DNA of 64,000 nucleotides from contig NZ_JADQDD010000001.1 of the NCBI RefSeq assembly GCF_019263595.1, positions 62,001-126,000 of the forward strand, given 5' to 3'. The position numbers and the translations under genes are program-made. Of the stretch, positions 8,107 to 29,210 are shown one piece after another. The notes below the pieces were generated by a model. It was not told the DNA's origin and did not search any database. It saw nothing but the letters and a program-made list of their open reading frames with translations. Within the stretch, counting starts at the first letter, position 1. The number at the start of each line of letters is the position of its first letter. The DNA is from Pseudonocardia sp. KRD291 (GTDB lineage Bacteria > Actinomycetota > Actinomycetes > Mycobacteriales > Pseudonocardiaceae).

Positions 8107-8144
8107 AGAGTAGTGTCCCGTCGTCTGCGTCCGCCAGCGCTGCA

Positions 8145-9757: not shown

Positions 9758-9772
9758 TGTTGGGTCCTCTTT

Positions 9773-11814: not shown

Positions 11815-12515
11815 CAGCCGACCTTTCCAAGATGCGGGACGAGCTCGTTCCAGTCGTAGCCACCGACGTGGAAGAACTCCGTTGTGTTGTAGGTTCCGTC
11901 CATCGTGTCCTTCAGAGTCGTGGGGCCCGGAAAGCCGATGACGTCCCAGTCGACCCGGTTACGGTTGCCGCCGTAGACGGGGTCGCAGTAGAAGCCCTGT
12001 CGGGTGTGCAGGCACAGGGCCTCGAAGAAGGGCAGGCCCTGGTCGAACACGCCCTGCAGGAAGGTCTGGACGGCCTCGCTCGTGCCAAGGGTGACCGGCC
12101 CCGGCTTGACAGAACCGGACAGCGCTTCCAGCACTGTGTCCTGCTCGGACTCGCTGAGCGCAACAAACTGTCGATCGAATTGTTCTTGGGCGAGGGAATC
12201 GAGTGTTCGGATGCCTTCGCGGTAAGTCCGTTGCATGTCGGACATCCGAGCCCGCCACGCGTCGGCGAACTTGCCGGTCAGCTTGAGGAATCCGCTGCCG
12301 TCGGCGGCGGCGAATATGTAGTCGATCCCCGACAGGTAGCGGTCGAGGAACACGACCACCCGCGCCTCGCGGGCGCCCGGGTCGTGGTCCGTGGGAATGA
12401 TGCGGGCGGTGGCCGCTTCGATCGTGTCCCACTCGTGGTCGGCAAAGAACAGCCGCTCGTCGGAATCGGGATCGACCGGGGAACCGACGATCTCCCAGTC
12501 GGCCTTCAGCGTCAT
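11814..12515 (-). CDS. Gluconate 2-dehydrogenase subunit 3-family protein
   Basis: A 233-residue protein of the gluconate-2-dehydrogenase subunit 3 family (Pfam PF13618), with the usual early FFADHEWDTIEAATARIIPTD segment and the C-terminal part with GFYCDPVYGGN and WDVIGFPGP. In the family this small subunit binds the GMC flavoprotein and is often exported by Tat with it. Here the N-terminus has no twin-arginine signal, so the pair may stay in the cytoplasm or the complex may differ. It lies directly downstream of a GMC flavoprotein gene (37 bases) and is probably its partner. Confidence 0.88.
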   Translation of the reverse strand: MTLKADWEIVGSPVDPDSDERLFFADHEWDTIEAATARIIPTDHDPGAREARVVVFLDRYLSGIDYIFAAADGSGFLKLTGKFADAWRARMSDMQRTYREGIRTLDSLAQEQFDRQFVALSESEQDTVLEALSGSVKPGPVTLGTSEAVQTFLQGVFDQGLPFFEALCLHTRQGFYCDPVYGGNRNRVDWDVIGFPGPTTLKDTMDGTYNTTEFFHVGGYDWNELVPHLGKVG

Positions 12516-12552
12516 GACGTCCTCGTTTCCGTGGGGGTAGGCGGTGGCGGTT

Positions 12553-14220: not shown

Positions 14221-14323
14221 GTGCTCTCCTCTCCACGCCGGCAACCGGGCCGGTGCGTGATGGCGTGCCCGGCCCGAGGGAGGCGTCCTCGGGCCGGGAG
14301 ACGGGTGGGGATGGACCGAGCCG

Positions 14324-15985
14324 CTACAGCGCGGGAGCGTCCGCGTTGCTCGGGGTAATGGTCTGCGACGCGATGTCTCGGTGGCGTCGTTTGATGTACT
14401 CGGCGGCGCGCACCGCGACGGCTTGCAGCGTGCTGGTGGGGTTGACCGCAGCGCCCGTGGTGAGCGAGCTGGCGTCGGTGATGAACAGGTTGGGGACATC
14501 CCAGGTCTGGTTCCACTTGTTGGTGACCGAGTCCTCAGCCGTGTTGCCCATCCGGCAGGTACCCATGATGTGCCAGCCGGGCGGTGGCGCGTCGATGCCG
14601 CCGATTCCGGTCGTGGTGGTGTCGATGACGCCACCCGCCGCATCCGCGGCCTCGCGGGCCCGGTGCTGCCCCCACTCGACGAGCCTGCGATCGTTCTCGT
14701 GCAGGCCGTAGTTGATGTGAGGCGCGGGTAGCCCGCTGGAGTCCTTTGCGTCCGGATCCAGTGTGACCCGGTTGGTCCGCACCGGAAGATCCTCTCCCTG
14801 CACGTAGATGAGCGCGTGCCGGCCGAAGTGGTCGTCGAAGAACCCGCGGTGCCCGGCGCCCCAGGGCGCGAGGTTGCCGGTGTTGGTCCCGAGCGCGCTC
14901 GTGGCGGCGCCCAGAGCGGTGCCGACCTGCAGCGAGAACCCGTTGACGAAGCCCCGCGACGTGTCGGTGTCGTAGAACTCCTGGCTGTAGAGCACGGCAG
15001 GCTCCGGGCCCTTGAAGCCCTCAAGCGGCTCGTCGAACCAGAAGTCCACGAAGGACCAGCTGTGAAACATCAAGTGCGTGCCGACGAGGCCGTTGGAGTT
15101 CGCCAGCCCGTCCGGGTGCCCGTTCTGGGCGGACATCAGCAGCAGACGCGGCGTGCCGATCGAGTTCGCGGCGACCACCACGGCCCCCGCCCGCACCTCG
15201 TGGCGCCGGCCGGTGACCCGGTCGACGTAGGTGGCACCGGTGGCGCGGCCGTTCTTGGCATTGATCTGCTCAACCCGGGCGTTCACTCGCAGGTCGACGC
15301 CGTTGCGCAGGGCCGCGGGCCAGTACGACACATCGGTCGAGGCAATGGAGTGCCGCGGACAGCCTGCGAGGCAGAACCCGCAGTCGTTGCACGCCAGACG
15401 GGCGTCCTTGGTGCGGGTGAGGATCGCGTTGTCGGCGGGCCACCAGTGCCAGCCGAGCTTGTCGAAGCCCGAGCCCATCTTGTGGCCGACCTTGCCGCCG
15501 CGGCTCGCCGGGCCCCAACCCTCGGGGCGCACCGGGTTGCCCGGATCCCCGGTGCGCCGCGCGACCCCGATCTCGGCGTCGTTGATCGCGTAGAACGGCT
15601 CGAGCTCCTCGTAGGAGATCGGCCAGTCGATCGTGCCCTCGACGCCGTGCTCGGTTCCCTTGCGGAAGTCGACGGGCTTGAACCGCGGCCAGGCCGCCGC
15701 GTAGTGTAGCGTGGAACCGCCCACCCCGGTGAAGATGTAGGGCGTCGTGTTTCCGGTGGTCGGGTAGTCCTCCGGGAACTGCCGGACGTTGGGCTCGAAC
15801 GACCAGGTGCGCTTGCGCTCGATCTCCCAGCCGTCGTACATGTGCGGGTGGTCCATCGCGTGGACCCAGTCGCCCTGCTCGAGGCAGACAACCTTGAGGC
15901 CGCCGTCGCTGAGCCGCTTGCTCATCGCGCCCCCGCCCGCGCCGGCCCCGATCACCAGGACGTCGGTCTCGGTGTATGCCGCCAT
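14324..15985 (-). CDS. GMC-family FAD-dependent dehydrogenase with cysteine cluster (pair 2)
   Basis: A 553-residue GMC oxidoreductase with GAGAGG at residues 13-18, a GVGGSTLHYAAAW flavin segment, and a C-terminal active site of HIMGTCRMGN and NPTSTLQ. Unlike its neighbour it carries a cysteine cluster, C199, C202, C205 and C209 (CNDCGFCLAGC), which looks like an Fe-S binding motif and is seen in some long-chain alcohol oxidase-like and FAD-dependent sugar dehydrogenases. The start shares one base with the stop of the small-subunit gene (TGATG), so the two are surely co-translated. The substrate is probably a sugar or sugar-like polyol, oxidised to lactone or ketone. Confidence 0.9.
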   Translation of the reverse strand: MAAYTETDVLVIGAGAGGGAMSKRLSDGGLKVVCLEQGDWVHAMDHPHMYDGWEIERKRTWSFEPNVRQFPEDYPTTGNTTPYIFTGVGGSTLHYAAAWPRFKPVDFRKGTEHGVEGTIDWPISYEELEPFYAINDAEIGVARRTGDPGNPVRPEGWGPASRGGKVGHKMGSGFDKLGWHWWPADNAILTRTKDARLACNDCGFCLAGCPRHSIASTDVSYWPAALRNGVDLRVNARVEQINAKNGRATGATYVDRVTGRRHEVRAGAVVVAANSIGTPRLLLMSAQNGHPDGLANSNGLVGTHLMFHSWSFVDFWFDEPLEGFKGPEPAVLYSQEFYDTDTSRGFVNGFSLQVGTALGAATSALGTNTGNLAPWGAGHRGFFDDHFGRHALIYVQGEDLPVRTNRVTLDPDAKDSSGLPAPHINYGLHENDRRLVEWGQHRAREAADAAGGVIDTTTTGIGGIDAPPPGWHIMGTCRMGNTAEDSVTNKWNQTWDVPNLFITDASSLTTGAAVNPTSTLQAVAVRAAEYIKRRHRDIASQTITPSNADAPAL

Positions 15986-16590
15986 CAGCTGCCTTCCCCT
16001 CGGAGCTTCCGGGCCGGTCCCACCGGGAGGTCCGCCGGGACCATGACCCGCCGCACGTCCTCGGTACGGGTGTAGGTGCCGCGCACCCTGCTCAGCAGCT
16101 CGTCGTCCCAGTCGTCCATGACGTCGGAGTAGCCGTACGGCTGGGGGGTCGGGCGGTAGTCCCGGCCCGCGGGCAGGTTCCGGTTCATCGCCCGGACGAC
16201 CTCGGGGCGGGAGTAGTACGCGTGGTAGACGAGGTCCCGCACCCGGACGAAGAATTCGGACTCGTCGCGCTCGAGGCCTTCCATTACCCGAACACGCGCC
16301 AACGAACCGCCGTTGACGAACCCGTCGCCCAGCGCGTCGAGCCGAGCGCGGAGATCGTTCTCCCCGAGAAACGGGAACCACCGAGCCGGAGTGCCAGCCG
16401 GTGCCACGTACCGCGCGATGAACGAGATCACGTCGATCTCGCTGGGCGCCGGGAAGCCGTCGCCACCGGGGATGAGCTCGTCGGCTACGGCATTCAGCAC
16501 CGCGGCCTGCGCCTCGGTCAGCCGGACCCCCGGCAGCCAGCCGCCCAGCGGCGGCTTGGTGTCACCGGAGGTCAGTCTCAGATCCGTCAC
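15985..16590 (-). CDS. Gluconate 2-dehydrogenase subunit 3-like protein (pair 2)
   Basis: A 201-residue protein, shorter than but similar in layout to the subunit 3 encoded at 11814: an opening LTEAQAAVLNAVADELIPGGDGFPAPSEID helix pair, a middle VRDLVYHAYYSRPEVVRAMN segment, then YGYSDVMDDWDDELLSRVRGTYTRTEDVR. No Tat or Sec signal is visible. The GTG start at 16590 has GAGAGG seven bases upstream. It is one-base coupled to the second GMC gene and should be its small subunit. Confidence 0.8.
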   Translation of the reverse strand: MTDLRLTSGDTKPPLGGWLPGVRLTEAQAAVLNAVADELIPGGDGFPAPSEIDVISFIARYVAPAGTPARWFPFLGENDLRARLDALGDGFVNGGSLARVRVMEGLERDESEFFVRVRDLVYHAYYSRPEVVRAMNRNLPAGRDYRPTPQPYGYSDVMDDWDDELLSRVRGTYTRTEDVRRVMVPADLPVGPARKLRGEGS

Positions 16591-16628
16591 GTTCCCTCTC
16601 CTTTGCGGGACGTCGTCTACCCCGTGGG

Positions 16629-17153
16629 TCAGGCGCGCTCGAGATAGTTGACGATCGCCCGGCCGAAGTCGGGGAGATCGACCGGTGTGCGGGAGGTGAT
16701 GACGTTGCCGTCCTCGACCACCGGCTCGTCGACCCACGTGCCGCCTGCGTTCTCGACGTCGGTCTTGATCGGCAGGTAGCCGGTGATCTTGCGGCCCTTC
16801 GTGGCGCCCGCGGAGGCGAGCATCCAGCCGCCGTGGCAGATCGCGGCGACCAGCTTGCCGGACTCGTAAGCGTCCTTCACCAGGTCGATCATCTCCGGGT
16901 GCAGGCGCATGTTGTCCGGCGCGAATCCGCCGGGAATGACCACCGCGTCGAAGTCGGCGGCCGAGACCTCGGAGGCGGCGGCGTCCGCCTCCATCGGGTA
17001 GTGCTCCTTGCTTTCGTAGCTGCCCTTGGTGCCGCTACCGATCACCTTGATGTCGGCTCCCGACTCCTGCAGCCGCAGGTAGGGATACCAACCCTCGAGG
17101 ATCTGGTACTCGTCCTCGATCAGCAGGGCGACCTTCTTGCCGGAAATCGACAT
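16629..17153 (-). CDS. DJ-1/PfpI-family protein
   Basis: A 174-residue type 1 glutamine-amidotransferase-like protein of the PfpI/YhbO branch. The nucleophile is C106 in AAICHGGW, with E13 positioned as the conserved acidic partner. Family members are reported as glyoxalase/deglycase, chaperone or protease-like proteins. In this operon a role against reactive dicarbonyls from keto-sugar metabolism is reasonable but only inferred. GAGG precedes the ATG. Confidence 0.88.
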   Translation of the reverse strand: MSISGKKVALLIEDEYQILEGWYPYLRLQESGADIKVIGSGTKGSYESKEHYPMEADAAASEVSAADFDAVVIPGGFAPDNMRLHPEMIDLVKDAYESGKLVAAICHGGWMLASAGATKGRKITGYLPIKTDVENAGGTWVDEPVVEDGNVITSRTPVDLPDFGRAIVNYLERA

Positions 17154-17215
17154 GTCACGTCCTCGCGTTCGTCGGTTCGTCGGTTCGTCGGGGAAAGCGA
17201 AGTCTCGGACGCCGC

Positions 17216-17917
17216 TCAGGCGTCGAGCATCTTCAGGAACTCGATGCTGGTGCGCACGTCGCCGTGGTTGGCCTGGATCTGGCGCAACGCCTCCCAGTGC
17301 TGGCCGTAGCCCATCGGGTCGTCCTTACCGGAGGGAATGGCAGCCGTGGTGTCGGCCAGTACGACGATCCTGAAATCCTGGTTGGCACCGTCGATCGCAG
17401 TCGCGATCTGACAGTTGCCGGTGGACAGACCCGCGACTACGAGGGTGTCGCAGCCGGCCTTGCGCATGTATTCGGTCAGCGCGGTCCCGTAGAACGAGCT
17501 GAAACGGTGCTTCCGGAACACCGGCTCGTCCGGAAGCGGCTCGAGTTCGTCGACCAGCTCGTCGCCGCCGTTACCCCAGGCGCCCGGGAACTGCGCCAGC
17601 GCGCCTTGCAGGCCCCACTTCACGTCGGCGAATCCGGCGTCCTTGCCGTCAGGGCGAAGTCCCCACAGCGACCACACCACGGGGATGCCCTTGGCGCGGC
17701 ATGCCTCCAGGACGTTGACGACCGGTTGTACGACGTCCTTGCCCTCGGGGGCACCGCCGGTGCTGGGGATGTACATAGCTCCGCCGGGCTGCGCACAAGC
17801 CTTCTGCATGTCCAGGACCAGCAGCATCGTCTTCTTCGGGTCGATCGTCGGCGCCACCCAGGCCGAGCGGTCGATGTGCGTGTCGATGTGGGTGTAGGTG
17901 TAGTCGAGCGAGGACAT
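17216..17917 (-). CDS. Isochorismatase-family cysteine hydrolase
   Basis: A 233-residue alpha/beta hydrolase of the isochorismatase-like family. The catalytic triad is visible as D36 (VLDMQKA), K136 (FRKHRFSSF) and C169 (STGNCQIAT). Members hydrolyse amides or vinyl ethers (nicotinamidase, N-carbamoylsarcosine amidase, isochorismatase). It is the first gene of the oxidative sugar operon; AAAGGAG stands nine bases before the ATG at 17917. Its role in sugar breakdown is not obvious, which may mean the true substrate is an amide- or carbamoyl-bearing sugar-like compound. Confidence 0.88.
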   Translation of the reverse strand: MSSLDYTYTHIDTHIDRSAWVAPTIDPKKTMLLVLDMQKACAQPGGAMYIPSTGGAPEGKDVVQPVVNVLEACRAKGIPVVWSLWGLRPDGKDAGFADVKWGLQGALAQFPGAWGNGGDELVDELEPLPDEPVFRKHRFSSFYGTALTEYMRKAGCDTLVVAGLSTGNCQIATAIDGANQDFRIVVLADTTAAIPSGKDDPMGYGQHWEALRQIQANHGDVRTSIEFLKMLDA

Positions 17918-18262
17918 CGCTGCTCCTTTGCATTGACGTGGATCGTCGAGACGACCAGGGACACCCGACCCGAGCACCCGCGATGGGATCACACTCGGAT
18001 CACCGTCAGGTGACCAGGTGGTCTGACCACTAGGTAACCGGACCAGGCTCCCTGTGTCAACAGTCGATCCGTCTCGCACGGCTCATCGTCCGCGCTGACG
18101 CGGTTAGCCGCCCCAGGTCTCGATGTCGATCCGATCTAAGGGCGACGCCAGCGATCAGACCTGGCACCAACAGCCCAATCGCGAGCAGGCGACTACGTCC
18201 AGGCCCTACATCACAGTGAGCTGCCATAAATCCGGCGGCCATGTCCTGCCGGCTGCGCAGAT
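17918..18262. promoter_or_regulatory. Promoter region of the sugar-oxidation operon
   Basis: These 345 bases separate the operon start from the mobile-element region. They hold the palindrome at 18018-18030. No gene is evident. The left boundary of the mobile element probably lies between here and 18260, but no tRNA or att-like repeat is visible. Confidence 0.5.
18018..18030. promoter_or_regulatory. Candidate FadR/FCD-type operator
   Basis: GTGGTC, one base, GACCAC: a perfect 13-base palindrome with the TGGT...ACCA core known for FadR-subfamily GntR regulators. It lies about 100 bases upstream of the first operon gene. GGTGACC and GGTAACC flank it on either side. The FCD regulator at 7295-8026 is the natural candidate to bind it. 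Confidence 0.6.
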
Positions 18263-18604
18263 ATGGATTGCATCTCCACGATGGAGGACACTGCTGCGAT
18301 GAGGCTGCGCGCGAACCACTCCCAAGGCCACTTGGCGCGCGGCGGTCTCCTCACCGTCACACCTGGGTTGTTGCTGTTCGAGCCGCACCACTATGAGCAG
18401 AGACTGGGCGGTGCAACCGTTCAACTCTCCGCGAACGAGGTCACTGGCATCGAGGTCGCACCACGAGCCTTGCGGCGTCCTCTTAGCGGCGGTCTTCGTC
18501 GACGTCTGCGGATCACCACCGCGGAAAGCTCGGTGCACCTGTTCATCGTTTCCGGGGTGGAGCGAGTGGTTGCTCGCGTCAACGACGTTCTTCGGCGCTC
18601 GTAG
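18263..18604 (+). CDS. Small hypothetical protein, GRAM/PH-like pattern
   Basis: A 113-residue frame (starts at 18263, 18281 or 18299 are all possible). The core reads like a short beta-rich domain: GGLLTVTPGLLLFEPH, then ATVQLSANEVTGIEV, then RRLRITTAESSVHLFIV and a closing helix ERVVARVNDVLRR. This strand-strand-strand-helix order resembles GRAM or bacterial PH-like domains, a fold guess only. It is isolated on the plus strand beside the relaxase remnant. Confidence 0.5.
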   Translation: MDCISTMEDTAAMRLRANHSQGHLARGGLLTVTPGLLLFEPHHYEQRLGGATVQLSANEVTGIEVAPRALRRPLSGGLRRRLRITTAESSVHLFIVSGVERVVARVNDVLRRS

Positions 18605-18750
18605 TGCCCGGCCGGCCGTGCCGAGTACGTGCCGAAGTCGGCCGCCGCTGAGCACGCAGGCCCTCGTTCATGCCGGTCAGCGGTAATTTTCGCGCAGGCG
18701 ACGCGGCTCCCCTGAACGGACCACGCTGTCGCTGAGCCTACGGATCGAAC

Positions 18751-19865
18751 TCAACTACGCTGAGCGGCCCGCCTGGCTATCTCATGGACAGGAGCCAAGC
18801 TGTGGTTGGACTCAGCAGATACCGACGATACGGGCGTGTCCATCCGGGCACACGCCCTCAGGGGGTCCTTGCACAGCGGTGTGGCGATGCCGTTACCCCC
18901 CCACGGTGGCGACGTGGTCGCGCGCGGCCGTCGTTTCCGGCACTGCCGTAGTCCGCTTCGCCGCCGAACGGCCAGCTGGTCCGCGGCGTCCCGGGCGGCC
19001 GACGCCTGGTGTACCCGATCGCGTTCCTGTTGCCAGGCCCCGATCTCCTCCAGCAACGCCGCCAGCAACACGACCAACGCAACCGCCGCAGGCCCCGCGT
19101 CGTCCTGCACACCCAACGTTCGGCGCCGCCGGATCAGCTGACGAGCGACCCGCCGCAAACCTGCCGATGCCTGCCCATCCTGGCACTGCCCGCCACGCGG
19201 AGGTCGGGCCGATCGATCGAAGCGTTCGGCCGCTGAGCCCAACTCGTCGGACCACTCCCCCACCGCGGTCAGGAGATCCCGTGTCGCGTGGGCCACGCCG
19301 TCCGGGTTCTCGGCGCTGTCACCGCGGCGAGCAGCTCCTACCCGTGCTCGGGCACCGTCGACACGCCTGCGCGCCGCGGCCACAGGGTCGACAGCATCGC
19401 GCGGCTGGGCCAGAACCGGCGCGAGGTGTCCTGCCGGACCAGAAAGGCCGCGATATGGATGTGGTCGTCCGCGTGCCGGATCGCGACCCACCGTGGCCCG
19501 CCGGAGTCGCCCGCGACGGCGACTCCCGAGCCGTCGAGCAGCTCGCGTGCGATTGACGCCCACTGCTCGTCGGACAACACCCGATCGCCGGCCGCTACTC
19601 GCGCCGAGCAGTGCCACACGTAACCCCGCTTGCCGTCCTCGTCGGACTCGCGCAGTCCGGCCGCGACCGCAGGAGCGCGCAGCGCCCGGATCAGCGGGCC
19701 CAACTCGAGGCGGCCCTCCTCGTTCTCTCGTGGCAGGCGTCCTACGTCCTGGCCGCCCCAGCTCGCGATGACGCGTGGTCGTACGTGCTCCTGCGCTCGC
19801 CCGGGCCCCATCAAGTAGGCCACCAGCCCACCGACCCGCCACCCGTGCACGACCTTCGTGATCAC
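18751..19865 (-). pseudogene. Decayed relaxase/mobilization nuclease
   Basis: The N-terminal part (GTG at 19865 to a stop at 19338) begins VITKVVHGWRVGGLVAYLMG and carries the relaxase histidine motif RHADDHIHI, as in relaxases of actinobacterial mobilizable elements. Its frame ends soon after the motif. The normal C-terminal part continues in a different frame from about 19400 to 18751 (SAENPDGVAHATRDLL, then a long helical GVQDDAGPAAVALVVLLAALLEEIGAWQ region). Compared with typical relaxases the middle third is missing, so an out-of-frame internal deletion around 19340-19420 is likely. The GTG start overlaps the MobC-like stop by four bases, which confirms the original operon. The element should no longer mobilize itself. 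Confidence 0.75.
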
Positions 19866-20182
19866 CGGCGACCTCGCTCGAACTCGGCCGTCACCGCGTC
19901 GATGACCGCGTCGAGCCGGAGCAGCATGCCCTCGATGCGCGCGATCTCCACACCCGAGGCTGCGGCGGCCTGCTGCGTTCGCACGACATCCGAGTGCAGG
20001 CACAGGAGATCCGGCAGCCCCGCCGAAGCTCCGTCACGACCGGCTGCGGCGTCCATCGCGGTCTGCCCGATCCACGCCCCGACAGCGAGGCCGGCCAACG
20101 TCGCGCGGTTCCGAACCACGTCGAGCTCCTCGGTCGAGAACCGCACCACGACCTGTCGAGTCCTCGGCGTTGCGCTGCGCAT
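19862..20182 (-). CDS. MobC-like relaxosome protein, ribbon-helix-helix type
   Basis: A 106-residue protein if the ATG at 20182 is used; an upstream GTG at 20245 is also in frame. It begins RQVVVRFSTEELDVVRNRATLAGLAVGAWIGQTAMDAAA, the usual ribbon-helix-helix opening of MobC-type mobilization accessory proteins, and continues with a long helical region ending AVTAEFERG. Such proteins bind oriT and help the relaxase nick. The last four bases overlap the relaxase start. Confidence 0.75.
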   Translation of the reverse strand: MRSATPRTRQVVVRFSTEELDVVRNRATLAGLAVGAWIGQTAMDAAAGRDGASAGLPDLLCLHSDVVRTQQAAAASGVEIARIEGMLLRLDAVIDAVTAEFERGRR

Positions 20183-20239
20183 GCGACGACGGCGAGCGGG
20201 TTCGTCGTCGCGCGGCTCGTAGTGCACAGTCCGGCACAG

Positions 20240-20393
20240 GACCACGGCGACGCTGCCACACCGTGGTCGGCAGCGCCTCGTCTCTGGTGAACGGGCCTAC
20301 TCCTCAGCCGACCCGGACGCCGTTGGACCTCGGAACGCCCCCGTTCCGATCTTCAGGCCGCCCACGGCCAGCGCCGGAAGCATCGCTTCCGGC
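20240..20393. repeat. Cluster of inverted repeats, candidate oriT
   Basis: Three perfect inverted repeats lie in the gap upstream of the mobC-relaxase pair: 8-base arms at 20240-20247/20261-20268, CGGAACG/CGTTCCG at 20331-20348 with a four-base loop, and GCCGGAAGC/GCTTCCGGC at 20373-20393 with a three-base loop. Origins of transfer usually lie just upstream of mobC and have such hairpins. No nic site can be assigned by eye. Confidence 0.4.
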
Positions 20394-20458
20394 ATATCTC
20401 GCTGCGCCCGAACCAAAGCAGCACGACCTCATGAACCTCCGCCCCGCTGCCGGTGCTG

Positions 20459-20692
20459 TTAGTCGACCGGGTCGTCGAGCTCCGGGGACGAGTCCAGGAA
20501 CGGGCGAGCGAGGTCGTAGACAGTGGTCTGGCGGACCTCGGTCATCCGCGCGATAGCCGGCCACGACAGCCCCTGACGACGGTGGAGCTCGGCCAGGAGT
20601 CGACCGCTGTTCTCCCGGCCGGCGCGCCGCAGCTCTTCCGAGCGCTGCACCGCGGAGACGAGCTCGTCCACCGACATCCCGGCGAGGTCCAC
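20459..20692 (-). CDS. Small helix-turn-helix protein
   Basis: A 77-residue protein with an N-terminal helix (GMSVDELVSAVQRSEELRRAGRE) and a helix-turn-helix GLSWPAIARMTEVRQTTVYDLARPFL that fits a sigma-4-like or Xre-like DNA reader. It lies between the mob genes and the divergent gene at 20785 in the element and may regulate transfer or excision. Recognised only by fold, not by family. Confidence 0.6.
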   Translation of the reverse strand: MDLAGMSVDELVSAVQRSEELRRAGRENSGRLLAELHRRQGLSWPAIARMTEVRQTTVYDLARPFLDSSPELDDPVD

Positions 20693-20784
20693 CGCGCCAT
20701 CCTCGCCGACCCCACCGTCGCTGACCTATCCACACATCCGAAGTTCGTCCCGCCAACACTTTCGGACGCCCGAAAGCTCAACAC

Positions 20785-21123
20785 ATGACGTCCGACCAGA
20801 CTCGGCGGCGCATGGCCGTCTTCTCCGTGCACACATCGAAGCCCGACGACATCGGAGCCATCGAGGTGGTCTTCGACAACCAGCTCGCAGCCGAGGAGTT
20901 CGCCGCCGGCCGCTCCAAGGACCCGGGAGTCCTGTCCGCATCGGTGACCCGGTACTTCCTGAGCGAACTCGGCAGTCGCAGGCCGATCAGCTGGTTCGTC
21001 GACGGGATCGAACAACCTCGCCGATTCGACCGTCATCCCTATCCCACGGACGGAAGCGAAAGCCCGCCAACAAATCCGGCCACACGGCAGCAACGCAGCC
21101 GGACACCTCGACCGGAAGCGTGA
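20785..21123 (+). CDS. Hypothetical protein of mobile elements
   Basis: A 112-residue protein with a compact domain MAVFSVHTSKPDDIGAIEVV ... EEFAAGRSKDPGVLSASVTRYFL and a proline/arginine-rich tail. I cannot name the family; its site upstream of the xis-int genes on the same strand suggests an element maintenance or regulatory gene. Confidence 0.6.
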   Translation: MTSDQTRRRMAVFSVHTSKPDDIGAIEVVFDNQLAAEEFAAGRSKDPGVLSASVTRYFLSELGSRRPISWFVDGIEQPRRFDRHPYPTDGSESPPTNPATRQQRSRTPRPEA

Positions 21124-21188
21124 TCGTGCACCAGCAGACGATTAGGGTGCCCCCGGCTTGGCGCTCGTGGCGACACGGAGACGACCTC

Positions 21189-21398
21189 ATGGCGGACAAG
21201 GAGCTCTACCGGGTCGACGAGGCGATGACGATCCTGTCTCTCAAGCGCAGCACGATCTACGAGCAGCTCCGATGTGGAAGGTTGCGCTCGGTCCATGTCG
21301 GCCGGACCCGGCTGATTCCCGCAGCCGCCATCGCCGAGTACGTCGCCCTGCTCGAGGGCGAGGCGGGAGCCTCAGGTCGATTCGGCGTTGCGTCATGA
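21189..21398 (+). CDS. xis: Excisionase-type helix-turn-helix protein
   Basis: A 69-residue protein of the excisionase (MerR-like wHTH) family: YRVDEAMTILSLKRSTIYEQLRCGRLRSVHVGRTRLIPAAAIAEYV. The layout, a helix-turn-helix plus an arginine wing, is that of recombination directionality factors. I start at the ATG at 21189; the frame is open upstream without resemblance. It overlaps the integrase start by four bases (ATGA at 21395), the usual xis-int arrangement. Confidence 0.85.
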   Translation: MADKELYRVDEAMTILSLKRSTIYEQLRCGRLRSVHVGRTRLIPAAAIAEYVALLEGEAGASGRFGVAS

Positions 21399-22530
21399 CG
21401 GTGCGGCGCAGCCGCGGTGAAGGCTTCACTGGGACGAATCCCGGCAGCGCTGGATCGCCACCGCGACGATCGGGTTCGACGGCCGCGGGAAGCGGATCAC
21501 CCGGAAGGCCAGCGGAGCCACGAAGACGGCTGCCAAGACCAAGCTGCGAGAGATCCTCCGCGATCATGAGGACGGCACGACCGTCGCTCCCGGCCACTAC
21601 ACGGTGCGAGAGACGGTGATGGACTGGTTGTCCTACGGGCTTTCCGGGCGGGCACCGGCGACGGTCAAGAACTACATGACGATCGCCGGGCAGCACATCG
21701 TCGGGCCGCTCGGCGCGCACAGGCTCCGAGATCTCTCCGCTGACGATGTCGACCGCTGGTTGAAGGCCGAGTCCCGATCGGTGAGCACCCGGACGCTTCG
21801 CCTGATGCACTCGATTCTGATCCGGGCGGTCAACCACGCCATGGCCCGCGACAAGGTCAAACGCAACGTCGTGAGCGTGTGCCGTCCTCCGACCGGCCGG
21901 CCTGGGCGGCGGTCCAAGTCACTCGATCTCGCACAGGCAGGCGCTCTCCTCGATGCAGCTGAGTCGAGCTCCTTGCACGCCTATATCGTGCTGTCGCTGC
22001 TGACCGGCGCCCGTACCGAGGAGCTTCGCGCACTGCGGTGGGGAGACGTTGACCTCGTCGGACAACCCGAGGCATCGCCCCCGATCCCCCCGTCGATCTC
22101 CGTGGTGCGATCGGTGCGCATCGGTGGGGACACCAAGACACGCAAATCACGGCGCCGGCTCGGTATGCCGCACCGATGCGTGACGGCGCTCCGACGCCAG
22201 GCGGCCCGGTCGATGCCCTCACCAGATCCGGATCAGTTGGTCTTCGCGACCCGGAGTGGCTCCGAGATGGATGCCCACAATGTGCGTCGCGCCTTCCGGC
22301 GTGTCACCGCGAGCGCCGGTCTCGACGCCACCGAATGGACCCCTCGAGAAATGCGGCACAGCTTCGTGTCCCTGCTCTCGGACTCTGGAATGCCCCTCGA
22401 GCACATCTCGCGTCTCGTCGGGCACAGCGGCACCGCCATCACAGAAGCCGTCTACCGCCAGCAGCTCCGTCCGGTCCTGGAGCACGGTGCAGCTGCCATG
22501 GACGACATCTTCCCGGTCGCCGATTCATAA
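21395..22530 (+). pseudogene. int: Tyrosine integrase with an N-terminal frameshift
   Basis: The gene begins ATG at 21395 with MTVRRSRGEG and then loses one base near 21422-21424. In the shifted frame the expected arm-binding domain resumes at once (LHWDESRQRWIATATIGFDG, then KRITRKASGATKTAAKTKL) and joins the open frame running to 22530. The catalytic domain is intact: arginine in LTGARTEELRALRW, lysine in TKTRKSRRRL, REMRHSF, LVGHSG and the nucleophile tyrosine in AVYRQQLRP. A start at the GTG at 21604 would give 308 residues without the arm-binding domain. Either the element cannot integrate normally or the base is a reading error. Confidence 0.8.
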
Positions 22531-22651
22531 CGTCCGAGTCGCGACCCGAGCAGTCGCATGCTCTATCCCGAGCGCACCGTGTCGCCTTCTCCGCGGCGCC
22601 CGGCCCCTCGACGGCGACGATCACGGCTGGCCCTCGTCTCGAACGATAGAC

Positions 22652-22669
22652 ACTCAGTTAGTCACTCAG
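22652..22669 (+). repeat. 18-base arm-type repeat, left copy
   Basis: CACTCAGTTAGTCACTCA. It matches the copy at 22948-22965 in 17 of 18 bases, in the same orientation. The two copies flank the tRNA-Pro core and may be arm sites for the integrase. Confidence 0.6.
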
Positions 22670-22764
22670 CACCCGCCCTGCAGCTGACCAAGATCACGAA
22701 CGCACGAGGGTCGGGCTCATCCTGGGACCACGACGAAGTCGCGAACCCGCAGGTCAAATGAGTA

Positions 22765-22799
22765 GAGGCCGGTACCCGACGTTCTCGGATACCGGCCTC
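22765..22799 (-). terminator. Hairpin downstream of the tRNA-Pro fragment
   Basis: A perfect 10-base-pair stem (GAGGCCGGTA with TACCGGCCTC) around a 15-base loop that can itself pair (CCGA with TCGG). On the minus strand it begins eight bases after the tRNA 3' end and looks like a tRNA terminator that was carried along with the tRNA piece. Confidence 0.55.
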
Positions 22800-22806
22800 C
22801 GGCCTG

Positions 22807-22848
22807 TCGGGACGACAGGATTTGAACCTGCGACCCCTTGACCCCCAG
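22807..22848 (-). repeat. tRNA-Pro(GGG) 3' fragment, attachment core
   Basis: Read on the minus strand it runs from the anticodon loop (CTGGGGG) through the 3' anticodon stem TCAAG, the T arm (GCAGG, loop TTCAAAT, CCTGT) to the 3' acceptor strand CGTCCCG and discriminator A. The 5' half of the tRNA is absent: the bases beyond position 32 do not pair. This is the core used by tyrosine integrases that insert in the tRNA-Pro 3' half. It is not a functional tRNA. Confidence 0.8.
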
Positions 22849-22947
22849 GCACTTATACGCTGTCCCTGACCTGCGCCCAATCCGGGTCCGCGCTGGTCAC
22901 GAGTCCGGCGGTGTCCGTGGTCGTCCGGCGGGCCGTCGGTCGGTTGT

Positions 22948-22965
22948 CACTCAGTTAGACACTCA
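22948..22965 (+). repeat. 18-base arm-type repeat, right copy
   Basis: CACTCAGTTAGACACTCA, one mismatch from the copy at 22652-22669 and on the other side of the tRNA core. Confidence 0.6.
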
Positions 22966-23210
22966 CCGGCCGCCGTACGCCCCGACCGGCACCGTGCTGC
23001 CTACTCCCCGGCTTGCCCCGATAGAGGCCATCCCGAGCGTGGTTCGGGTGGCGTGCAGGGTCGCCGGAGGCGATCGCGTAGCGACGGCTCTGTGTTGGGA
23101 CCACGGGTCTCCGCGCAGGTTCGCCCTGGACGGCGCCCGAATCACAGGCGACCCTTCGGCCGGCTCAGGGCAAGCACGACACGCCCGAAGCGAAGACCTC
23201 AGAGTCGGAC

Positions 23211-23236
23211 ACGAACACATGGGAACATGTGTTCGT
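23211..23236. repeat. Large perfect palindrome with 11-base arms
   Basis: ACGAACACATG, four bases GGAA, CATGTGTTCGT. Its right part contains GAACATGTGTTC, which matches the GAAC-N4-GTTC core of actinobacterial LexA boxes. It may be an operator for a gene separated from it by the IS, or an att-region structure. Confidence 0.5.
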
Positions 23237-23304
23237 CACCGCTCCTCAGCGAGGAGGAAGCCTACTGATCAGCCTGAGTGAACCGCCCCGGCGTGTCCGG
23301 AGAG

Positions 23305-24246
23305 CTATCGGTTTGAGTGCTCCGGCTCCGGTTGGGCCTCGTGGTGACGGTAGTGGGCCGTCTCCAGCTCGGCGGGTGGCAGGTCTGCGGCGGAGCCGTG
23401 AAGGCGTCGGTGGTTGAACCAGTCGACGTATTCGAGGGTGGCGATCTCTACCTGCTCAACGGTGCGCCATGGTCCCCGCGGTTTGATCAGTTCGGTCTTG
23501 AACAGCCCGATCGTCGACTCTGCCAGCGCGTTGTCGTAGGCGTCGCCGACGGATCCGACCGAGGGCGCGACACTGGCGCTGGCCAGGCGTTCGGTGTAGG
23601 AGATGGACGTATATTGGGAGCCCGCATCGGAGTGGGCGATGAGTCCGGACAGGTCTTGCTGGCCTTGTCGGCCACGTGTCCAGACGGCCTGTTCGAGGGC
23701 GTCGAGGACCAGTTCTGTGCGCATCGTCGTGGCCGCGCGCCAGCCCAGGATCCGTCGTGAGTAGGCGTCGATGACGAACGCGACGTAAACCATGCCCGAC
23801 CAGGTCGGCACGTAGGTGAAGTCGGCGACCCAGAGCTGGTCCGGGGCCGGTGGGTTGAACCGGCGGCCGACCAGGTCCGCGGCCCGGACTTCGGGCCCGG
23901 CGATCGTGGTGCGGATCCGCTTGCCGCGCCGAGCGCCGACCAGGCCGTGGGCTCGCATCAGCCGTTCCACGGTGCAGCGGGCGACCGTGATGTCCTCGCG
24001 GTTGAGCTGGGTCCAGACCTTGCGGGCGCCGTAGACGCCGTAGTTCTCGGCGTGTACGCGCACGACCTCCGCGCTCAGCTCCTCGTCACGCTGCTGCGCC
24101 CGGGACGGACCCGCGGCGCGGGCGGCGTAGTAGGTCGACGGGGCGATCGCCGCGCCCAGCTCGCCGAGCTGGGCACAGATCGACGCGACACCCCACCGCC
24201 GCCCGCCGGTGCTGCGGGCGGCGTGCTGGTCGATGAACCTCACCAA
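23305..24246 (-). CDS. IS3-family transposase OrfB (DDE domain)
   Basis: A 313-residue IS3 OrfB. The HTH_21-like segment precedes the integrase core; the DDE residues are D in LWVADFTYVP, D in IAHSDAGSQY and E in DNALAESTIG, with the closing YVDWFNHRRLHG motif typical of IS3. It starts inside the end of orfA in the -1 frame, so the active product is probably an OrfAB fusion made by ribosomal frameshifting near 24246. It ends inside the IS just before the left inverted repeat. Confidence 0.93.
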   Translation of the reverse strand: MVRFIDQHAARSTGGRRWGVASICAQLGELGAAIAPSTYYAARAAGPSRAQQRDEELSAEVVRVHAENYGVYGARKVWTQLNREDITVARCTVERLMRAHGLVGARRGKRIRTTIAGPEVRAADLVGRRFNPPAPDQLWVADFTYVPTWSGMVYVAFVIDAYSRRILGWRAATTMRTELVLDALEQAVWTRGRQGQQDLSGLIAHSDAGSQYTSISYTERLASASVAPSVGSVGDAYDNALAESTIGLFKTELIKPRGPWRTVEQVEIATLEYVDWFNHRRLHGSAADLPPAELETAHYRHHEAQPEPEHSNR

Positions 24247-24572
24247 CGCGTGCGTGGCCGGTCGATCTCGGCCGCGAAGAAAGCCGACGCCGCCTTCAGG
24301 ATCTCGTTGGCGCGCTTGAGTTCCGCGTTCTCCCGCTTGAGCCGGCGCAGCTCATCGGACTCCTCAGTGGTTGTCCCGGCCCGGGCACCGCCGTCGGTCT
24401 CGGCCTGGCGGACCCACTTGCGCACCGTCTCCCCGGTCCCGACTCCGAGCTTCTCCGCAACGGCGTTCATCGCCGCCCACGGCGACTCGTAATCGGCCTG
24501 GACCTCGGCGACCATGCGCACCGCCCGCTCACGCAACTCCGGCGGATAGGGCGGCTGGGAACGACGTGTCAT
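24240..24572 (-). CDS. IS3-family transposase OrfA (HTH and leucine zipper)
   Basis: A 110-residue OrfA. The helix-turn-helix lies in PPELRERAVRMVAE ... VAEKLGVGTGETVRKWVRQAE, followed by a coiled coil ELRRLKRENAELKRANEILKAASAFFAAE used for dimerisation. Overlaps orfB by seven bases. Confidence 0.93.
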   Translation of the reverse strand: MTRRSQPPYPPELRERAVRMVAEVQADYESPWAAMNAVAEKLGVGTGETVRKWVRQAETDGGARAGTTTEESDELRRLKRENAELKRANEILKAASAFFAAEIDRPRTRW

Positions 24573-24625
24573 GACTCCATCTCCTCAGAAGATCAAGTCT
24601 CCGGACACGCCGGGGCGGTTCAGAG

Positions 24626-24842
24626 AGGACCCGACGATGGTGCATGAGTCGCGACCCACGGGACAACCCCCAACGACCGCACAACTGATCTGTCGAATAC
24701 CGAGCGCAAGGATGGGTCGCACACGATCCAGACCGCAGGCTTTCCGGACGGGTTCGTACCGCCGTCTGCGTCGCTTGAACCGCAGCCTCAGTCGAACGCC
24801 CCGACGGCAAGCACTGACATCCAGGCGAAGAATAACGAGTAG
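24626..24842. other. Gap between IS and DUF6338-like gene
   Basis: 217 bases with no clear gene. An open frame starting with an ATG at 24637 encodes an arginine-rich sequence without resemblance and runs out of frame into the next gene. Confidence 0.4.
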
Positions 24843-25580
24843 ATGCTGCCGACTAGCATTTGGATCGGCGCAATCCTCTTGGCGCTGGTTCCAGGCTGGC
24901 TTTACACGCAGTTGCGCGAGCGCTTATCGCCGCGTCCACCGATGTCTAACCTGAGTGAGCTCTTGAGCGCCTTATCGGTCGGCCTTGCCACTACAGGCGT
25001 AGGCATCGCGCTTCTCGTTCTAATCCCTCATCAGTGGTTACCGTTCCTGGTTGATGTTGACGCTTGGCCTTCGGGCGGGAATGTGTACTTGCGGGGCAAT
25101 GCTCGCGAGGCAGTATGGACAGTGGCCGTCGTCCTGATGCTCGCGACCGCAATCTCGCTGGTCCTGTACATTCCACAGCGCTTACGGCGCAAAACCGAGT
25201 TTAGCGCCAACCGGAGCGTGTGGGTCTCGTCGCTCGGCGCCAGACCGAAGCGCCAGATACCGTGGGTTGGCATAAAGCTACAGGATGGCTCACTCATTGA
25301 GGGAATTCTATACAGCTACAGTGTCGCAGAACGCCCGCCGGAAGAACGAGATATCACGCTACAGAAGCCGCTCCGGCGAACCGCCCCAGAGCCCGGATGC
25401 ACCCCAACACCCGTCCAGGTTGACCGCGCCATGTTCTCCGGAACAAACATCGCCTATGTTACCGTTAGCAACTACCCGGAGAAAGAATCGCGGTCGAGGC
25501 AGGCGCGTAGATCCGTCTACCGATGGTGCGCCGCGCAAGCGGCAAAGCTCCGGCGCATTGATACGAGATGGAAAGGCTAG
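24843..25580 (+). CDS. DUF6338-like membrane protein
   Basis: A 245-residue protein with an N-terminal signal-anchor helix (SIWIGAILLALVPGWLYTQL), a second hydrophobic helix at about 42-64 and a third at about 88-110 (VWTVAVVLMLATAISLVLYIP), followed by a soluble domain with WVGIKLQDGSLIEGILYSYS and DITLQKP, a small beta-barrel-like module. This layout is that of DUF6338-type proteins, whose function is unknown. Codon use is less GC-biased than the surrounding catabolic genes, a sign of transfer. It converges on the HEPN gene. Confidence 0.7.
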   Translation: MLPTSIWIGAILLALVPGWLYTQLRERLSPRPPMSNLSELLSALSVGLATTGVGIALLVLIPHQWLPFLVDVDAWPSGGNVYLRGNAREAVWTVAVVLMLATAISLVLYIPQRLRRKTEFSANRSVWVSSLGARPKRQIPWVGIKLQDGSLIEGILYSYSVAERPPEERDITLQKPLRRTAPEPGCTPTPVQVDRAMFSGTNIAYVTVSNYPEKESRSRQARRSVYRWCAAQAAKLRRIDTRWKG

Positions 25581-25777
25581 AAGCAGTGAGCCGTGCGAGC
25601 GCTGCCGTATGGCACCGCGTGGGCGCCTGAACTGCGCTTCCGGTCAGACAAGGGCAGCGGACGCGACGAGCACCCATTGGGCGGCTCGATCGGATCCGTG
25701 TCGGCTGCTTCGTCGAACCAAACAGTTCGAACTCATTCTTGATGAGGTAGATTCATGCGACCCTGCCATGGAGGTGC
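25581..25777. other. Intergenic between convergent cargo genes
   Basis: 197 bases between the DUF6338-like and HEPN genes; no clear terminator or gene. Confidence 0.4.
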
Positions 25778-27232
25778 TCAGCTACCCGACCCGTTATTCG
25801 ATCCGAGCGCACTTAACAGTCGTTCGTCCAGCGACTGCGGAGTCCAGGGAACTTCGGCTCGAAACAGGTTCAGCAGGAGAGCACGCAAGAGCACGACTCC
25901 GACTTCATTAGCTGGATACGCCTTACCCTCTAATACAACGTTCATCGTCTTCCACGAACGACCGTGGACAATTTTCGAACGCTGCTCGTAGAACTTCTTC
26001 ACCAGTCGATAGACAACCGATGGATCGACCCCGTCGACCGAGAGCACCACCGCAGCACGTTGAGCCATTCGATGCGTCATCTCGTCGCGATCACTATCGG
26101 CGAGGAGAAGTGCTTCGATCCCTATCGCTGCATCCAATACTTCGTCTTCTTCAGCGACTCGAAGCAGCGCCCGAACCGCACGCCGGGAAGCCAACTTGAC
26201 GTTCGCGGGCGCCACGCTCAGAGCGGCAAACGTCGCAGGTAGCACCTCCAGCTCTTTGGCCGAAATTGGCTCGACCTCTTCGTTCCACCGTCCTTGATCA
26301 AATTCGTGCGGATACCGCTCGAAAGTCTGCACCTTCCAGACAGCCGGAAGATCGTGCTCCCAATCATCAGCCCAATCGAGCGGACGAACGACTGCCTGCG
26401 CGTAGCCCGTACGCCGACTAGAAATGACATGGAGACACTCGAATACGCGATCAACCACCTCGTAATCTATACCTGATTGGCGGTAGCGCCGCTCAAACGG
26501 GTCTTGATTATCGATCGCAATATCGCAAACCACTACAGCATGCGTCGAAGCTGCAACGACATGAGCGGATACTCGACCGCCATACATCGTGGAGACCGCC
26601 CGCGCGCGCTGCATTGATTCGTCTAACTTCTCGATCCTTACACCGTGACCCAGCTCAATCGGCCCAGCATGGTCGAGGGGAGTTAGAGATATCGGCACAA
26701 GCAGGTCCCCCCTTAGCTCATTCGCGAACCGCGCTCGCTCTAGCTGCAGATAGATCGCCAGCAAGTCCACATCGGCTTCAACTCCGACAGCCTCTGCTCG
26801 AGATATGATGTCACACACAAACCGCATATATTCGAAGACGAACTGCTTCTTGCGAGATTCGGCGTCAGATTCGCTATGTGAGAGCAGACTGATGCGTCGC
26901 TCGAACGATTCATCGCTGGCAGCAACTTCCCAGACGCCGTCTGCGGCAGCCTCCAGCTCGGGAACGTTACTGTACTTGATTTGCGCAAATAGTCCGACAT
27001 CTGAGCCAAACATGTGGTCCCAGTTGACCGGAGCAGAGTCAGGCGGAAAGAAGGTGTCGGCTGCGGTCGTGGTTGACCAGCCTACTGAACTCGATGTGTA
27101 CTGCGTAACGGCTTTCCGAGGGATGTATCGGTTCGATCTCAAATGCTCGCGGGCCCGCTCGCGGGCAGCCCGAACAGCGGGCAGCGTCAGACTCCACAAA
27201 TCCGGCTGCAGGGGTGCATCCACGCTGCACAT
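25778..27232 (-). CDS. HEPN-domain protein, ApeA-like
   Basis: A 484-residue protein from the ATG at 27232 (a TTG at 27250 is also in frame; no good ribosome binding site at either). The first 300 residues form a mixed domain that I do not recognise. The C-terminal 170 residues match the ApeA-type HEPN pattern: AAIGIEALLLADSDRDEMTHRMAQRAA, then VVYRLVKKFYEQRSKIVHGRSW. R418 and H423 form the R-x4-H ribonuclease motif. ApeA-like proteins are known as antiphage abortive-infection factors that cut RNA. Base composition is clearly lower in GC than its neighbours, with rare-type codons, so it was probably acquired with the element. An antiphage role is inferred. Confidence 0.75.
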   Translation of the reverse strand: MCSVDAPLQPDLWSLTLPAVRAARERAREHLRSNRYIPRKAVTQYTSSSVGWSTTTAADTFFPPDSAPVNWDHMFGSDVGLFAQIKYSNVPELEAAADGVWEVAASDESFERRISLLSHSESDAESRKKQFVFEYMRFVCDIISRAEAVGVEADVDLLAIYLQLERARFANELRGDLLVPISLTPLDHAGPIELGHGVRIEKLDESMQRARAVSTMYGGRVSAHVVAASTHAVVVCDIAIDNQDPFERRYRQSGIDYEVVDRVFECLHVISSRRTGYAQAVVRPLDWADDWEHDLPAVWKVQTFERYPHEFDQGRWNEEVEPISAKELEVLPATFAALSVAPANVKLASRRAVRALLRVAEEDEVLDAAIGIEALLLADSDRDEMTHRMAQRAAVVLSVDGVDPSVVYRLVKKFYEQRSKIVHGRSWKTMNVVLEGKAYPANEVGVVLLRALLLNLFRAEVPWTPQSLDERLLSALGSNNGSGS

Positions 27233-27431
27233 GATCCCGCAGTCGCCCAAGGAGCGGTGAGGCAGGGTGTCTCACCGCTCCCTCCGTGTTATCGCGGCCG
27301 ACGACCGCGCTGCGGTAAAGCTCAGCCGAGCCTCGTCGTCCATGGTGCTCGCTGGGGGCGACCGCGATGCGGCCCCCCGACAGGCGGCCGGTGAGAAGTG
27401 CCGGCCCAACCTGTCTGGTCGAAAGGACGCG

Positions 27432-29210
27432 TCAGGTGATGCCGAATTCCCGCATCTTTCGGTAGAGGGTGTTACGACCGATTCCGAGTAACCGCGCTGC
27501 CTCGCTGCGGTTTCCGTCGGCTACTCGAAGCGCGTCGGCTACCGCTTCTCGTTCGGCCGCTTCCATTCGGTTCAGAGTGCGGGGCGTGCAGAGCTCATCG
27601 GGCAGATCGTGTGCGTCGACGGTTTCGCCGTCCGCGCGTCGGGCCAGGAGGATGACCGTGTTGCGCAGTTCTGCGAGGTTGCCGGGCCAGCGCCAGTCCA
27701 TCAGCCGGCCCCAGGCCGAGGAGGAGAACCGCGTTTCCGACTGCGGGGACGGCAGCTCGTCGAGGACGGTTCGCACCAGAGCGGGTAAGTGGTCCAGCCT
27801 GTGCGCCAGCGCGGGCAGGCGGACGGTAGTAGCGACCCGTCGGATCACACCGACCGCCATGTCGTCTGCGGCGTCGAGGTCCGCTGTGAGCGCGAGCGGA
27901 GCACGTGAGTTGGCGAGCGCCTGTAGCTGCGCAACTGTCGGTGATGGGGTCGCGTGCACTCGGCGGACGACGACAGCACGTCCGACGCTTGTGGCCGCTC
28001 TCGCAGTCTCGAACCAACCGGGATCGAGGTGAGGCTCGACGACCAACGGGTCGTCCGCGCCCTGCATGCGCAGCATGCGCAGCGTGGTCCGCAGCTTTCC
28101 AGTGCCACCCGCACCGGTCACCGCGACCATCTCGCCGTACCGCACGGCCGTTGCAAGCTGGCGGTCGACGTCATGGTCGAAATGCAGCGGCTCCGCCGAT
28201 ATGTCGGGTGCAGCCGCACCGACCACGCGCACCGGGGGCGGCTGTGTACTCCCGCCAGGGTGGCGGTCCGGTCGCCTTGGGAGCAGCCGGATGCTGAAGG
28301 CCAAGGCTCCGGCCTCGTCGATCGGTTCGACCAGGGCGTCATGCCGACCGTCCGAGAGCGGTACCTGCATCCGCCGCGCGCTGGTCGGCCCGTGCTCGCT
28401 GAGGAACCGCCACAGCGTCGGGTGTAACTCCGGGCCTGTGTGGTCGAGCCCGAGTCGATTGGCGAGGACGGTGTGCTCGTCGACGACGAGTGCTCCGGTC
28501 GTCCCCCGTTCGGTAGCCAGGTAGGCGTGGACGAGTCGACGATGCCGTTCGCCAGCTTCATCGAGGATCCGTGACGCGATCTGGCGCCCGATGTCCTCTG
28601 CCATGACCGTCATCAGGGGGTGGACGTCGCGTAGCGAGCAGGCCAGCGCGAAGGACCCGATCATCCGCCCGGTGTAGGGCTCCATGATCGGCGTGCCGGC
28701 GCAGGTGAAGTCTGCCAGCAGGGCGTTGTAGTGCTCGGGTCCGCGGACGAGCACCGGACGGCGCTCGACGAGCACCGTGCCGAGGCCGTTGGTTCCGACC
28801 GAGTGCTCCGAGAAGTCGAATCCCTCCGCCGCGCTGGCGCGATCCATGGTGTCCCGCTGACGACGAACGTCGGCATGTCGCATCAGGATCCGTCCGGTTG
28901 CATCGGACAGCACCATCGCCACGGGCACATCGGCAAAGCTGTCCTTGAGCCGGTCCAACACCGGCTCCGCAGCACGGCGCAGCACCGGGAGGACGTCGGC
29001 GGGTTCGCGGTAGTCGACGCCGTTGGGGGCTACCGGTACCGCGTCGCCGACGCATCGCCGCCAGCTCTTCTCGATGTACTGCGGCACACCGCTGGTGCCC
29101 GGCGACTCGGTCAGCAGCCCGCCGTCGACGAGCGCCTCCCGACTGACCCGGGTGCGCTCGCGCTCGACCGACGTCAGGAACATTGGGAACCGGATCTCGT
29201 CTCGACGCAT
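27432..29210 (-). CDS. GAF-domain Fis-family activator (AcoR-like)
   Basis: A 592-residue regulator. The N-terminal region has a GAF-type sensor (SAAEGFDFSEHSVGTNGLGT, then FTCAGTPIMEPYTGRMIGSFAL). The central domain is a reduced AAA+ module with an altered P-loop (GAGGTGKLRTT) and no GAFTGA loop, so it cannot work with sigma-54. A Fis-type helix-turn-helix ends the protein (GNRSEAARLLGIGRNTLYRKMREFGI). Relatives in actinobacteria control alcohol, acetoin and monooxygenase genes. It is divergent from the esterase-BVMO pair and probably activates it. Confidence 0.9.
   Translation of the reverse strand: MRRDEIRFPMFLTSVERERTRVSREALVDGGLLTESPGTSGVPQYIEKSWRRCVGDAVPVAPNGVDYREPADVLPVLRRAAEPVLDRLKDSFADVPVAMVLSDATGRILMRHADVRRQRDTMDRASAAEGFDFSEHSVGTNGLGTVLVERRPVLVRGPEHYNALLADFTCAGTPIMEPYTGRMIGSFALACSLRDVHPLMTVMAEDIGRQIASRILDEAGERHRRLVHAYLATERGTTGALVVDEHTVLANRLGLDHTGPELHPTLWRFLSEHGPTSARRMQVPLSDGRHDALVEPIDEAGALAFSIRLLPRRPDRHPGGSTQPPPVRVVGAAAPDISAEPLHFDHDVDRQLATAVRYGEMVAVTGAGGTGKLRTTLRMLRMQGADDPLVVEPHLDPGWFETARAATSVGRAVVVRRVHATPSPTVAQLQALANSRAPLALTADLDAADDMAVGVIRRVATTVRLPALAHRLDHLPALVRTVLDELPSPQSETRFSSSAWGRLMDWRWPGNLAELRNTVILLARRADGETVDAHDLPDELCTPRTLNRMEAAEREAVADALRVADGNRSEAARLLGIGRNTLYRKMREFGIT

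Follow-up and report, generated by a model that had tools for sequence, protein, structure and literature searches.

An Undivided Arm–Core–Arm Attachment Site of a Decayed, Putatively Mobilizable Element Within a Chromosomal Contig of Pseudonocardia sp. KRD291

Gene Content of the Locus

The window considered here is the whole analysed stretch of 64,000 nucleotides from Pseudonocardia sp. KRD291, i.e., bases 62001-126000 of contig C1 (139,490 bases) in an assembly of 6.57 Mb and 525 contigs. Unprefixed positions refer to the window; other genomes are given G numbers. The left part of the element contains a relaxase remnant (18863..19865, minus strand), which is MobA/VirD2-like in its intact relatives and lacks about 403 bp at 19399/19400; the same gap appears in BLASTN comparisons with G057, G036 and contig C2 of the own genome. 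The intact relatives match PF03432, the window ORF has no Pfam match, and the relaxase relatives in viral contigs are at 34-35%. At the downstream edge of the remnant, 167 bp (18696-18862) are 87% identical to C57:8922-9088 of the same genome and are possibly an oriT or a terminator. The next genes encode a MobC/NikA-like mobilization protein (19862..20245, minus strand; PF21983 at 26.5 bits, just below the cut-off of 27), a conserved 112-aa protein without a Pfam match (20785..21123, plus strand; 86% identical on C2 and 75% in G036) and an Xis-like protein (21120..21398, plus strand; HTH_17, E 1.3e-8; 92% on C2). The tyrosine integrase gene (21396..22530, plus strand; PF00589, E 2.1e-20) has its N-terminal part out of frame, with a short gap relative to G057 and C2, both of which carry intact copies. 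Its open frame at 21604-22530 contains the catalytic domain.

An element of Pseudonocardia sp. MAG 53_S67 (contig C211 of G057, 4,912 bases; L051/L121) shares 96.4% DNA identity with positions 19400-22848, and the integrases are 99% identical at the protein level over the 308 aa of the open frame. Unlike the window, this element has a whole integrase frame and a relaxase with the 403 bp, and its contig ends at the core, the far side being unseen. In blocks of 200 bases, identity to G057 is 81-91.5% until about 20.0 kb and 94-100% thereafter; because of this jump, the element is a mosaic. Judged from its gene content, it is a decayed, putatively mobilizable element with a frameshifted integrase, Xis, a MobC-like gene, a shortened relaxase and foreign cargo on the right. 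As is characteristic of IMEs, it has an integrase (here frameshifted) and an excisionase of its own. The relaxase remnant and the MobC-like gene have a putative role in mobilization. The FtsK/SpoIIIE-type tra gene and the rep gene of AICEs were not found by the Pfam scan among the ORFs at 18-27.4 kb; an ancestor could have lost them. Among phage integrases, the 10 listed of 333 records do not exceed 32.8% identity. In the plasmid collection, the best integrase match (59.3%) comes from Nonomuraea, the record being 11.85 Mb long, and the next one reaches 31.7%.

On the right of the attachment site, an IS3-family element (23279..24622, minus strand) has 25-base perfect ends and the 3-base duplication GAG on both sides, as read from the sequence. 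Since its ends are intact and the target duplication is present, an IS3-made rearrangement is ruled out as the cause of the join. Two cargo genes follow, namely a DUF6338 gene (24843..25580, plus strand; PF19865, E 5.2e-28) and a low-GC gene of 490 aa (25778..27250, minus strand; GC 0.56-0.58). The latter was detected in one of the 62 genus genomes searched, which is the own genome. Its product has one plasmid relative, a Rhodococcus protein of 38.8% identity annotated as HEPN domain-containing. Neither PADLOC nor NCBIfam names either of the two genes.

Flanking DNA

BLAST places the end of homology in the left gene block at 17931-17955, and inspection by eye places it at about 18075. Homology of the right block begins at 27430-27432, which is at a stop codon and is therefore a natural end of homology. 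Between these two conserved blocks lies a foreign segment of about 9.3 kb (~18.08 to 27.43 kb), in which each part of the element occurs once and in circular order. The first-pass annotation had proposed that the genes on the right could be element DNA as well; this is plausible from 22966 to about 27.3 kb, and the support does not extend beyond.

Neither an empty site nor the two flanks lying next to each other were seen in relatives. Insertion via end repeats was rejected: the best repeat has 13 bases and is inverted (E 0.026), and a 10-base direct match (18004/27430) has an E value of 1.6. When complete or near-complete genomes were compared with the left portion of C1 and with the right block, synteny was patchy and reordered, and the ancestral order was not recovered. 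Several relatives (G051, G026, G013, G004) share the sugar-acid/GMC-oxidoreductase/isochorismatase block at 7325-18075; its neighbours vary among them, and it looks as if it were exchanged as a unit. A gene pair adjoining this block in G051 and G026, one of the two being a catalase gene, has its paralogs of the own genome on C53 and C101, and the break was not placed. Homologs of the left flank of C1 (C1 56.6-59.4 and 69.3-79.9 kb) fall inside a 187-kb att-flanked region of G004, so the flanking DNA of C1 may itself be island DNA. In G036, other left-flank homologs lie outside the core-to-tRNA stretch, at 2763-2769 kb and in a different order.

Structure of the Attachment Site

The core (22806..22848, minus strand) consists of the last 43 bases of tRNA-Pro(GGG), one more than the 42 first assigned, and is identical to the 3' segment in relatives. 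An arm-type repeat is located on each side of it: arm1, GACACTCAGTTAGTCACTCA, on the integrase side (22649..22668, plus strand) and arm2, GTCACTCAGTTAGACACTCA, on the far side (22946..22965, plus strand). The two are identical at 18 of 20 bases. When the window was scanned with up to 3 mismatches, the repeat was found at these two places only, while 100 shuffled controls gave a mean of 0.00 matches; a chance origin of the arms is thus ruled out. A slightly wider arm pattern had 7 sites in the own genome and its reversed control had 0. The tRNA terminator on the integrase side is present as a hairpin at 22765-22799 (inverted repeat I1). ARAGORN found no tRNA genes in the window, no Rfam family reached its gathering score there, and a search for the tRNA 5' half at 22849 found none.

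Each arm has neighbouring bases specific to its side, ATAGACAC on the integrase side and CGGTTGTCAC on the opposite side, and the window carries each of them in its proper place. The bases to the right of the core are GGCAC, as at the arm2-type sites of G037, G027 and G020, whereas the tRNA has TCAAG there. Wherever the arms occur, the distance from the start of arm1 to the core motif is 166-171 bases, and arm2 follows the motif start by 123-128 bases. Because this spacing and the side-specific bases agree with the split sites of other Pseudonocardia, the window site is, on comparative grounds, a true arm1-core-arm2 attachment site of the pSAM2/pACPL type, with a 43-base tRNA-Pro 3' identity segment and one arm-type repeat per side. 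The initial description of an undivided site with the make-up of attP is thereby borne out.

In the published attP of pACPL from Actinoplanes sp. SE50/110, a repeat GTCACCCAGTTAGT(T/C)AC(C/T)CAG stands on either side of a 43-nt segment of tRNA-Pro (PMC3364876). These repeats were likened to the arm-type sites of pSAM2, which are bound by the pSAM2 integrase and needed for recombination (PMC3364876). By analogy with pSAM2, the window arms would be bound by the integrase. The window shares with the published description the 43-nt tRNA-Pro 3' end between two repeats and the int and xis genes beside attP; the pACPL repeat and GTCACTCAGTTAGACACTCA were compared by eye, and the likeness rests on the att design. 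pACPL is described with tra and rep genes, whereas the window has relaxase/MobC genes, a frameshifted integrase and an attP located inside a chromosome contig.

Attachment Sites in Related Genomes

In relatives, the same parts are found split, and the arm repeats are present at related att sites. In G037, core and arm2 (L050:2637-2783) lie at the far end of an element, and arm1 (16649) lies 14 kb away beside an intact tRNA-Pro(GGG) (16805-16879) that includes the core; the two halves have 46 bases in common. On contig C1 of G004, one half consists of a core at 633 and an arm2 with one mismatch at 761, and the other half of the tRNA-Pro core at 188107 and its arm1 at 187938; the halves are 187 kb apart, with 0 intervening cores. 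This stretch (L134:633-780, L143:7938-8168) is possibly a very large island of the same arm family; an integrase (67%) and Xis adjoin its tRNA-Pro(GGG) end. In G042, an element of roughly 5 kb (L057:12659-17947), whose integrase is 73.6% identical to that of the window, sits at tRNA-Ala(GGC). It has a core of 46 tRNA-Ala bases and is surrounded by arms related to those of the window, with 2 and 3 mismatches. The arms were kept and the target changed in this genome, which indicates that the arms track the integrase family and the core tracks the target. G053 was rejected as a second case of this kind: both arms occur beside tRNA-Ala(GGC), but the longest exact core has only 9 bases, which is not tRNA-length.

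A search of 390 family genomes for the exact two-arm pattern returned the own genome only; as 0 mismatches were allowed, diverged arms such as those on C17 (see below) were missed. Among 43 distinct core sites (core with up to 1 mismatch, arms with up to 4), both arms were present at 2, arm1 only at 7, arm2 only at 8 and neither at 26; these loci were fetched by similarity to the window region, and the counts are therefore not frequencies. Both two-arm sites, the window and C17, belong to the own genome. Three of the arm1-only cores are in a tRNA gene, two are at a contig end and two are without a tRNA half, which is likewise absent from all 8 arm2-only cores. Viral contigs contained 0 undivided sites, and each of the 10 plasmid records listed, of the 16 matching the att region, covers the core part only. 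Among the matches listed in a full-text literature search, no paper mentions this Pseudonocardia locus in its title or in the opening of its abstract. The unsplit site is unusual to see, yet of a known kind.

Within the own genome, the 139-kb C1 has no second core and no further arm. The 5' half of tRNA-Pro(GGG) was not found in the assembly; a search with 3 mismatches returned TGG and CGG tRNA-Pro genes, and a match on C203 is a tRNA-Ala. C2 starts one base beyond the core with a tRNA-type base, followed by the terminator and arm1 (one mismatch). Past arm1 it carries an Abi_C/AbiJ-like gene and then the integrase, Xis, 112-aa, MobC and relaxase genes; the Abi_C/AbiJ-like gene (L008:1-2615) is thus placed between the integrase gene of this related element and its arm1. 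C2 is probably a tRNA-proximal end, because the 23.7 kb of C2:5152-28851 run colinear with 2578766-2603811 of G036, a tRNA-proximal stretch that lies at least 8.5 kb from the tRNA-Pro(GGG) of that genome. An intact tRNA-Pro(GGG) without an element had been named as supporting evidence for the initial description. No such gene was found in the assembly, and at the single tRNA-type core end, that of C2, the contig breaks and carries a related element. On C57 (L018:12283-12424), a tRNA-Pro(CGG)-type core fragment is followed by an arm2-like repeat (2 mismatches), as seen by eye.

The second undivided site, C17:16138-16452, is also arm1-core-arm2 and is diverged (77-78% identical over the region). 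C17 matches G036 at 2717-2732 kb, past the second core of G036 at 2711093; between the flank of that core and C17:16228-16336 the likeness is 93.6%. An additional arm1-core is located at C17:1882-2073. It lies at the left edge of an 11.4-kb stretch (C17:1835-13234, L007) whose right edge is without a core. In G036, the genes that correspond to C17:804-1834 and C17:13235-14165 are separated by 9 bases and by no core, so this arm1-core seems to have come without a partner core, unless G036 lost the stretch. Truncated integrase tails precede arm1 at C17:16138 and at G014 2326276; a further one, of about ten residues as judged by eye, probably does so at C17:1882.

Origin of the Undivided Site

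The first-pass annotation had left two origins open, recombination and a tandem copy. The tandem origin is favoured here: the undivided site is taken, with confidence a little above even, to be the attP-like junction inside a tandem (accretion) array that once stood at tRNA-Pro(GGG). One element would already have been present at the 3' end of this tRNA gene, and another would have recombined through its own integrase at the core of the resident. Both arms are retained at the junction when an element inserts next to one with the same arms, and [int-arm1]-core-[arm2], of the same make-up as attP, would be left between the elements. Decay would then have shortened the relaxase, frameshifted the integrase, brought in the IS3 element and removed or displaced the outer ends. 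Given the observed arms, their geometry, their split state in relatives, the decay and the arrays in relatives, we infer that two elements were involved and that C1 belonged to such an array.

Similar arrangements have been described elsewhere. In SGI1 tandem arrays the junction was named an internal attP (PMC2297512), and a review of IMEs uses the term 'chimerical attI' for accreted elements (PMC5704250); like the window site, these junctions between adjoining integrated elements are built as an attP is. These accounts refer to Southern blot and PCR and to known outer junctions, whereas the outer junctions of the window are absent from the contig. AICE tandems and accretions in Actinobacteria include several elements per tRNA gene, with decay (PMC3218068, PMC9513070); TraB-type transfer genes are described there, whereas none were found in the window segment by the Pfam scan. 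Tandem prophages have also been described (PMC9934374).

In complete genomes, cores of one direction occur several per locus (four in G014, three in G056). Arm1-core junctions without a tRNA 5' half are found at C17 1882, C17 16138 and G014 2326276. Further points in favour are the split att pairs of G037 and G004, the undivided C17 site with its flank resembling that of the second G036 core, the colinearity of C2 with G036, and the C1 left-flank homologs within the 187-kb region of G004. Element DNA lies on both sides of the window core, with arm1 and int on the left and, on the right, arm2 and cargo that none of the 61 other genus genomes was found to carry. More than one element is suggested by the relaxase gap and the mosaic. 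On the 139-kb C1, neither the cores that would mark the outer ends of the neighbours nor the target tRNA was found, which lowers the claim of an array; C1 may be too short for them. In G056, about 1.3 Mb separate the right block from the tRNA-type core, and in G009 this block is likewise distant from core 1189417. This speaks against an array, as does the C17-G036 comparison, which favours insertion without flanking cores.

That comparison bears on a different explanation, unlikely but to be taken seriously, in which a single circular element with an intact attP entered at ~18.08-27.43 kb by homologous or illegitimate recombination rather than by its integrase and became permuted, its attP staying inside. 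The single-copy parts of the compact ~9.3-kb segment stand in the circular order that this would give, which counts against an array; the cargo restricted to one of the 62 genus genomes agrees with it, and so does C17:1835-13234, absent from G036, with arm1-core at its left edge and a right edge without a core. The ends of the segment, however, show no significant repeat (the 13-base inverted one being the best), no relative was seen with the flanks adjacent, and the relaxase gap and the mosaic suggest several elements. The broader view that the undivided sites of this genome mark elements able to settle by a non-integrase route, as whole permuted pieces with attP inside that provide later elements with landing sites away from the tRNA, is considered improbable.

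A chimeric contig, in which the assembler fused the arm1 end and the arm2 end of different elements at a common core, is held to be quite improbable. C1 and C2 have 48 exact bases at the core in common, C2 and two G057 contigs (C211, C751) end at the core, and the assembly is without the 5' half of tRNA-Pro(GGG), all of which would fit such a misjoin. But C17 is independently arm1-core-arm2 and would need a second one, and even then each side would be without its other end on C1. The G057 contigs end at the tRNA-Pro core at L118:9590-9664 and L051:4883-4912; the presence of excised forms or of repeated cores in the sample may account for these ends. It is hardly credible that the window is a free circular element or plasmid, even though the make-up of its site is that of the attP of a circle. 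C1 is linear, with no closed circle through attP, and continues beyond the site for 84 kb on the left and for 54 kb on the right; its flanking blocks are shared with long contigs of G051 (left) and of G056 and G009 (right). Furthermore, integrase and relaxase are damaged, and 0 plasmid records have 80% of 18000-27400. The favoured explanation remains a junction inside what was once a tandem array.

Significance

On this explanation, an undivided attachment site in the chromosome would be a record of the stacking of mobile elements. It points to tRNA-Pro(GGG) of Pseudonocardia as a hot spot used by elements of about 14 kb and by regions of up to 187 kb with the same arm pair. The window site has the form of a natural attP and, if still working, would be a landing site away from a tRNA gene.
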